Below are positions 20,907-21,525 of a stretch of DNA of 34,234 nucleotides, piece by piece. Below the pieces are notes generated by a model, which was not told the DNA's origin, made no database searches, and saw only the letters and a program-made list of their open reading frames with translations. The number at the start of each line of letters is the position of its first letter. Positions within the stretch are counted from its first letter, which is position 1. The translations under genes were made by a program, and so were the position numbers. The stretch is from Bacteroidales bacterium (lineage in GTDB: Bacteria > Bacteroidota > Bacteroidia > Bacteroidales > UBA7960): positions 1 through 34,234 of the forward strand of contig PWRF01000193.1 in assembly GCA_003556325.1 (NCBI GenBank), read 5' to 3'.

Positions 20907-21455
20907 TCACAACGCCCGTACTGCTGATTTAAACTGGTTGCCCCTGTCGGCATAGTTTTCAAACAAATCAAAACTCGGACATGCGGGCGACAGAAGAACC
21001 ACATCGCCCGGAAGCCCGCTTTTATAAGCCAGTTCCACGGCGTGGTTCATGTCTTGTGTTTCATAAACAGGGCATTCTGTGTTTTGTATCTGACTCCTGA
21101 GATTGGAACAGTCGGATCCCAGGCAAACGATCGTCTTCACCTTCTTCTCTATCAACGGGAGGACGGCCGAATAATCATTCCCTGCATCCCGGCCACCGGC
21201 AATCCAGATAACGGGCTTCTCCTGCGACTCCAGGGCAAACCAGGCGGCGTTCACGTTGGTGGCCCTGCTGTCGTTAATAAACAAAATGCCACGAACGTGC
21301 AGTACCTCTTCAAGGCGGTGAACCTGGTTCTGAAAGCCGTTAAGACTGTTTTTAATCCCCTCTTTGCGAACATCAAAAAGCCGCGAAGAAATGGTTTTTG
21401 CCATCCCGCTGTAAATGTTTCCGCTTTCTTTCAATGTCTTCTCCAAAAGATCCAT
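20907..21455 (-). CDS. murD: N-terminally truncated MurD: only the C-terminal ligase domain and the end of the central domain (182 aa)
   Basis: 'GILFINDSRATNVNAAWFALESQEKPVIWIAGGRDAGNDYSAV' and 'GDVVLLSPACPSFDLFENYADRGNQFK' are MurD-specific. Full-length MurD is about 440-450 aa, but only 70 nt separate this ATG from the mraY stop, so the UDP-binding and P-loop domains are absent. Confidence 0.9.
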   Translation of the reverse strand: MDLLEKTLKESGNIYSGMAKTISSRLFDVRKEGIKNSLNGFQNQVHRLEEVLHVRGILFINDSRATNVNAAWFALESQEKPVIWIAGGRDAGNDYSAVLPLIEKKVKTIVCLGSDCSNLRSQIQNTECPVYETQDMNHAVELAYKSGLPGDVVLLSPACPSFDLFENYADRGNQFKSAVRAL

Positions 21456-21495
21456 AGTATATTGGTCTGATTTTATTATTCTTACCTTCTGTTTC

Positions 21496-21516
21496 CCGGC
21501 CTTCCTCCCGGGCCGG
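21496..21516 (-). repeat. GC-rich inverted repeat in the mraY-murD gap
   Basis: CCGGCC-TTCCTCCCG-GGCCGG, 6-bp perfect arms, within the 70-nt gap. Confidence 0.5.
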
Positions 21517-21525
21517 TTCTTTCTT

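Follow-up and report, generated by a model that had tools for sequence, protein, structure and literature searches.

In Bacteroidales genomes with a match to MurL (called here MurL+), the murD gene of the division and cell wall (dcw) cluster has repeatedly lost the region encoding the N-terminal, UDP-binding domain and most of the central, ATP-binding domain, and what remains between mraY and ftsW is a gene of its own for the last ~180 residues, which evolves under purifying selection. The copy studied here is an open reading frame (ORF) of 182 aa at positions 20907..21455, on the minus strand, of a 34,234-nucleotide contig of a Bacteroidales bacterium (PWRF01000193.1, assembly GCA_003556325.1); this whole stretch of DNA was analysed and is called here the window. 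We propose, with a probability of about 0.6 for the whole reading, that the product of this ORF and its relatives (called here the tail) is a non-catalytic pseudo-ligase that serves as a module for docking or scaffolding at the precursor complex, a molecular role that we infer.

The MurD profile TIGR01087 covers the 182-aa ORF at model positions 268-441 of 441 only (E=1.5e-47). The Pfam domain Mur_ligase_C (PF02875) also matches it, and neither Mur_ligase_M nor the N-terminal domain was found in it by domain search. Its closest PDB relatives are solved MurDs, with E values down to 5e-24, and MurD crystal structures were likewise the top Foldseek matches of its AlphaFold2 model (E 1e-13). In this model, the predicted local distance difference test score exceeds 90 over most of residues 46-182 (20910..21320, minus strand), which form the folded, Rossmann-like C-terminal domain of MurD, and is mostly below 50 in residues 1-45 (21321..21455, minus strand), an orphan helical arm that once formed the end of the MurD central domain and starts at a Met conserved in full-length MurDs. 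The motif SPACPSFDLFENYADRG was found in the ORF. The position of the catalytic lysine K319 is occupied by Arg (R64 in NDSRATN, codon 21264..21266, minus strand) and that of K348 by Ala (A91 in GGRDAGNDY, codon 21183..21185, minus strand), as read from the sequence and alignments. The ORF thus shares with MurD the homology and fold of its C-terminal domain and its position between mraY and ftsW, and has no UDP-binding domain, no GTNGK-type P-loop and neither K319 nor K348. Neither the UDP-binding nor the P-loop ATPase domain is present in the tails, which have also mostly lost the catalytic lysines, and the ORF is therefore not a MurD ligase as defined. It should be noted that Streptococcus MurD carries an Arg at the K348 position (PMC8788868), so that a K348R replacement by itself would be no proof of inactivity.

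The same short ORF was present in 21 of 21 sampled genomes of the genus, complete in 20 and cut by a contig end in one. The 20 complete copies have open frames of 183-245 aa, are 52-72% identical to the window ORF and contain no stops; mraY lies directly upstream in 18 of the 20 loci fetched, and the other two begin at a contig edge. In other genera of the family, the slot is occupied by a full MurD (446-496 aa) whose P-loop and two lysines are intact, except in genus g7 (G026), which is tail-only yet has both lysines. In a protein database search limited by design to relatives of ~100-318 aa, 1372 relatives were retrieved, very many of exactly 182 aa among the matches listed, and some of them are encoded on contigs of up to 3.75 Mb (P0095). 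A search of plasmids gave no match. The close relatives are Bacteroidales metagenome-assembled genomes whose isolate names (CSSed, B1Sed) look like those of sediment samples.

The 182-aa ORF starts with an ATG located 70 nt from the mraY stop, and 57 nt separate it from ftsW. About 260 MurD codons are missing at the 70-nt junction (21456..21525, minus strand), as judged from the full MurD present at the same slot in close relatives of other genera. From the ORF list and from synteny in relatives, the upstream dcw neighbour is mraY (21526..22782, minus strand) and the downstream one is ftsW (19668..20849, minus strand); the order on the minus strand is murE (22785-24248), mraY, the 182-aa ORF, ftsW, murG and murC. 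A previous sequence-only reading of the window had stated that the slot holds only a 182-aa C-terminal ORF, 70 nt from mraY, that the UDP-binding and P-loop domains are absent, and that the frame is open and well conserved, and the profile and domain searches and the genus-wide comparison agree with it on all these points.

To a genome of this lineage, MurD ligation appears dispensable, since MurD2 and MurL are present and glutamate racemase (MurI) is absent. The assembly to which the window belongs (a metagenome of 347 contigs, 86% complete) encodes, as Mur_ligase_M proteins, MurE, MurC, a stand-alone MurF, a MurF-Alr fusion, Mpl, FolC and one MurD-like enzyme; MurE, MurC, Mpl and FolC were named by sequence and context. 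As far as this 86%-complete assembly and the sampled genomes of the genus show, there is no canonical full MurD, MurD2 being the only one of its kind, which does not support the suggestion of the sequence-only reading that a full MurD sits elsewhere; MurD2 and MurL, found instead, had not been foreseen. In the MurD-like enzyme, and in every homologue examined, the positions of D182, K319 and K348 hold Glu, Ile and Arg, respectively, and Glu at the D182 position with Arg at the K348 position sets L-Glu specificity in Xanthomonas MurD2 (PMC8788868). The MurL of the genome matches NF041275 with an E value of 2.3e-64, though under the Xanthomonadales-specific cut-off, and no MurI was detected above cut-off in the genus and family. 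The host lineage hence encodes the MurD2/MurL bypass, in which L-Glu is ligated and then epimerised to D-Glu, without MurI, and D-Glu most likely enters its precursors by this route. MurL and MurI were mutually exclusive in 61 relatives and then in 295 genomes of the order, where 178 genomes have MurI, 98 have a MurL match (just a weak fragment in one of these) and none of the MurL genomes has MurI above cut-off.

Several observations were made on these enzymes along the way. The MurD2 gene of the genome is broken over the ends of two contigs (C140 and C129; loci L006 and L008), and these are probably adjacent in the genome, as the same overlap sequence is found at both contig ends. The two MurF-type ligases, stand-alone MurF and MurF-Alr, are encoded at loci L002 and L003 (contigs C142 and C26). 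Apparent MurD2-MurL fusions occur in G113, G218 and G307 (family f78), where both matches fall in frames of equal length; the MurL of these genomes and of G141 (f106) sits in open frames of 885-949 aa. Two genomes of another family (G109 and G214, f74), both 99% complete, have a full-length MurD, and neither MurI above cut-off nor MurL was found in them.

Across the order, the state of the MurD slot was read by open-frame length, using a profile of the domain. The 98 MurL+ genomes comprise 52 with a full-length MurD, 37 with the tail only, six in which none was found and three in which the locus is cut by contig ends. Among the MurL- genomes tabulated (27 were left out of the genome-by-genome tabulation), ~160 have a full-length MurD and a single one, G051, has a clean tail-only copy, an association between tail-only state and MurL with a Fisher p of 2e-18, uncorrected for relatedness. 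Some 19 family-level groups include tail-only copies, and in nine of these groups full-length copies are found as well. The order mraY-tail-ftsW was observed in all loci fetched where the contig includes both neighbours, the P-loop is absent from all tail-only frames, and no stop or frameshift was seen in any tail-only copy found. In G246, a MurL- genome (locus L111), the murD frame opens only 707 nt downstream of mraY; the gene is otherwise full-length, and a frameshift or a sequencing error accounts for the late opening.

On a tree of MraY and FtsW from 124 loci, 15 changes between full-length and tail-only states were counted, at least 12 of them on branches with support of at least 95 in the Shimodaira-Hasegawa-like approximate likelihood ratio test (SH-aLRT). 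Because regaining an N-terminal part is implausible, these changes are for the most part separate truncations, and all truncations except that of G051 fall in MurL+ lineages. A single ancestral truncation is ruled out by the 15 changes and by full-length copies nested among tail-only ones. The start Met falls at the same alignment position in 47 of the 54 tail-only copies, and 81 of 87 full-length MurDs have a Met there as well. In full-length murD, this Met might also start a shorter isoform: the 18 nt before it have an A fraction of 0.44, compared to 0.32 at other internal Mets; another conserved internal Met scores 0.40, and codon content confounds this internal-start signal.

For the tail domain within the genus, the ratio of non-synonymous to synonymous substitution rates (omega) was 0.125; it was 0.059 in full-length relatives, and MraY and FtsW gave 0.046 and 0.067. 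An omega of 1 was rejected for the tail domain (log-likelihood -9142.9 vs -8434.9). Close tail pairs in which synonymous divergence is not saturated gave omega values of 0.06-0.13. Arm (residues 1-45) and core (46-182) are alike constrained, with values of 0.129 vs 0.122, and for the arm residues twice the log-likelihood difference against an omega of 1 is ~319. Conservation is uneven among residues. In the 54 tail-only copies, D317 is kept in 54, H301 in 51, R302 in 46 (Lys in the other 8), F/Y422 in 47 and S415 in 44, and K319 is kept in 35, N268 in 25, N271 in 11 and K348 in 10; the conserved Trp and the K-V-K, SP and RG..F motifs are also conserved after truncation. Within the genus, K319 is present in 15 and K348 in 2 of 20 copies. 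The earlier statement that both lysines are replaced is hence true of the window and does not describe the typical state of the tail. Taken together, the loss of catalytic residues and an omega well below 1 make the tail a pseudoenzyme under purifying selection.

Both lysines are present in 39 of 39 MurL+ and in 48 of 48 MurL- full-length MurDs, and eight tail-only copies retain both K319 and K348; full-length relatives already carrying Arg and Ala at these positions, which the sequence-only reading had regarded as evidence against itself, were thus not encountered. The MurL+ full-length MurDs and these eight tails indicate that the deletion came first and the loss of the lysines second. The reverse order, in which loss of the lysines enabled truncation, is ruled out by the same copies.

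We propose the following explanation. The MurD2/MurL bypass would have made MurD ligation dispensable, so that the catalytic part could be lost, and the ligase-specific residues N268, N271, K319 and K348 would have drifted once the gene was truncated. The redundancy of MurD explains the loss of the catalytic part and not the recurrent, constrained retention of the remainder in the same slot, which argues for a second function of the domain. The tail would keep a protein-protein docking function already present in MurD, and its likeliest partner would be a member of the membrane-proximal precursor complex (MurG, MraY, FtsW or MreB) or MurD2/MurL; docking would keep the precursor pathway coupled to its membrane site while MurD2 carries out the ligation. 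MurD binds MurG and MreB in Thermotoga maritima, as cited in PMC6420597, and Mur ligases including MurD interact with FtsW, FtsZ and FtsQ in Mycobacterium tuberculosis (PMC3605390). These contacts place docking to the membrane-side precursor complex first among the candidates. The second option of the sequence-only reading was a pseudo-ligase reduced to one domain and retained because of its place in the cluster; retention, recurrence and synteny are in favour of this part, and the role as scaffold or regulator is still an inferred one. Since the enzyme was removed and the domain kept at least 12 times, nearly always from the same internal Met, the bypass may have exposed a ligation-independent second function of the MurD C-terminal domain in the precursor or division complex, possibly bacteria-wide, a tentative generalisation to which we would give somewhat less than even odds.

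Several results weigh against this proposal. Truncation is not a forced consequence of the bypass, as 52 of the 98 MurL+ genomes keep a full-length MurD. With no more than ~4 changes of the MurL trait on the tree, a phylogenetically paired test of MurL versus truncation is underpowered and did not reach significance. Divergence is strong in the copies of family-level groups f2, f4, f70, f78 and f100, from which several motifs have gone, and the omega of the tail, roughly double the value for this domain within full-length MurD, indicates that the constraint is partly relaxed. Finally, no MurD was found in the genomes of family f76, where the dcw cluster is dispersed, so the function of the tail does not seem to be universal. 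In one of these genomes (G216, locus L210), murE is separated from mraY and ftsW.

The MurL- genome with a tail, G051 (98% complete, 10 contigs), is a case apart. MurI, MurL, MurD2 and a full MurD were not found in it; its Mur_ligase_M genes encode MurE, MurF, Mpl and FolC, there is no murC after murG (dcw loci L207 and L112), and the MurD tail that it still has between mraY and ftsW has diverged strongly. The Mpl reaction is established, and on this basis the precursors of G051 may come from salvage of murein tripeptide by Mpl.

The main rival to a docking role is a regulatory one, in which the tail binds a small molecule, a nucleotide or glutamate, and acts on MurD2/MurL as a sensor or allosteric regulator; we consider this unlikely but deserving of attention. 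It would account for D317, H301, R302 (or Lys), S415 and F/Y422 being kept while N268, N271 and K348 are lost, the former being what we take, from structure work, to be ligand-side residues of MurD. However, loss of the central P-loop domain leaves the ATP site incomplete, the residues in question may instead be retained for folding, and the tail persists in G051, where MurD2 and MurL were not found. Less probable still is a decaying pseudogene left after MurD became redundant with MurD2/MurL, a possibility raised by the sequence-only reading. The loss of the lysines, N268 and N271, the much diverged copies of several lineages, the two-fold raised omega and the absence of a detected MurD from f76 would fit such decay, which is contradicted by purifying selection, with an omega of 0.13 over 20 species and of ~0.06-0.13 in close pairs, and by the open frames of the tail-only copies found. 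Moreover, the tail was kept and the N-terminal part lost in at least 12 independent cases, and random decay would leave N-terminal remnants too.

We consider it quite improbable that the ORF acts in cis only, as a translated spacer coupling the translation of mraY to that of ftsW or through RNA signals: the genes are tightly packed, the tail often lying a few nt from mraY or overlapping it and usually less than 100 nt from ftsW, but a spacer would need neither selection at the amino-acid level nor the motifs W72, D62 and SP156-157. The domain fold is intact, as would be expected if the tail worked in trans with an N-terminal and central half of MurD encoded elsewhere, a split enzyme to which we attach very little credence: the catalytic lysines are mostly lost, and a PF08245 search of 21 genus genomes, whose matches have the frame lengths of MurC, MurE, MurF, MurF-Alr, Mpl, FolC and MurD2, revealed no lone MurD half in the genomes that are at least 90% complete. 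A collapse of ~800 bp in assembly, conceivable for a window taken from a metagenome of 347 contigs and already disfavoured by the sequence-only reading, can be dismissed, since the same structure was found in dozens of independent assemblies, on contigs of up to 5.26 Mb (G291) and 3.75 Mb, with lineage-specific junctions and divergence afterwards.

MurD is commonly viewed solely as a catalyst and a drug target. The repeated loss of its catalytic part amounts to a domain dissection carried out by evolution, which shows where to look for a hidden function of MurD, and the tails provide a ready set of small separate proteins with which to test it. Our results also extend the MurD2/MurL bypass to about one third of the sampled genomes of this order, and they call for caution in annotation, as a 'murD' call in these genomes need not mean D-Glu ligation. 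The parts are known, namely the MurD C-terminal domain, the MurD2/MurL bypass and Mur ligase relatives with structural roles. We found nothing relevant on truncated MurD or on MurD2/MurL in Bacteroidetes in the open-access literature, nor any account of MurD tails that stand alone, recur and are under selection in lineages with the bypass.

Compared with known systems, the tail is alike the MurD C-terminal domain (PF02875/TIGR01087) in sequence, fold and dcw position; MurD is the three-domain UDP-N-acetylmuramoyl-L-alanine--D-glutamate ligase, whereas the tail is devoid of the UDP-binding and P-loop ATPase domains and mostly of the catalytic lysines. The MurD2/MurL alternative pathway was reportedly described in Xanthomonas oryzae by Feng in 2017, and the host genus likewise has MurL, a MurD2 carrying both residues of L-Glu specificity, and no MurI. 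A review of this pathway names Gammaproteobacteria, Alphaproteobacteria and Actinobacteria, and mentions neither Bacteroidales nor a MurD tail kept in the dcw slot (PMC8788868). With MurL in ~1/3 of the sampled genomes of the order, the bypass is far commoner in Bacteroidales than the genera of that 2021 review suggest. The scaffolds of Mur ligases with MurG and MreB (PMC6420597) and the contacts of Mur ligases with FtsW and FtsZ (PMC3605390) show that MurD has membrane and divisome partners; those complexes involve full-length, active MurD, and the C-terminal domain alone is not claimed to be responsible in these sources. A Mur ligase fold is also used as a structural part, and not as a ligase, in plastid RNA polymerase. 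Subunits of this polymerase (8ras_Q and 8qma_O), which we take to be its MurE-like subunit, were among the Foldseek matches of the tail model; this subunit differs from the tail in being a full-length plant protein of transcription, unrelated to truncation or to the dcw cluster.
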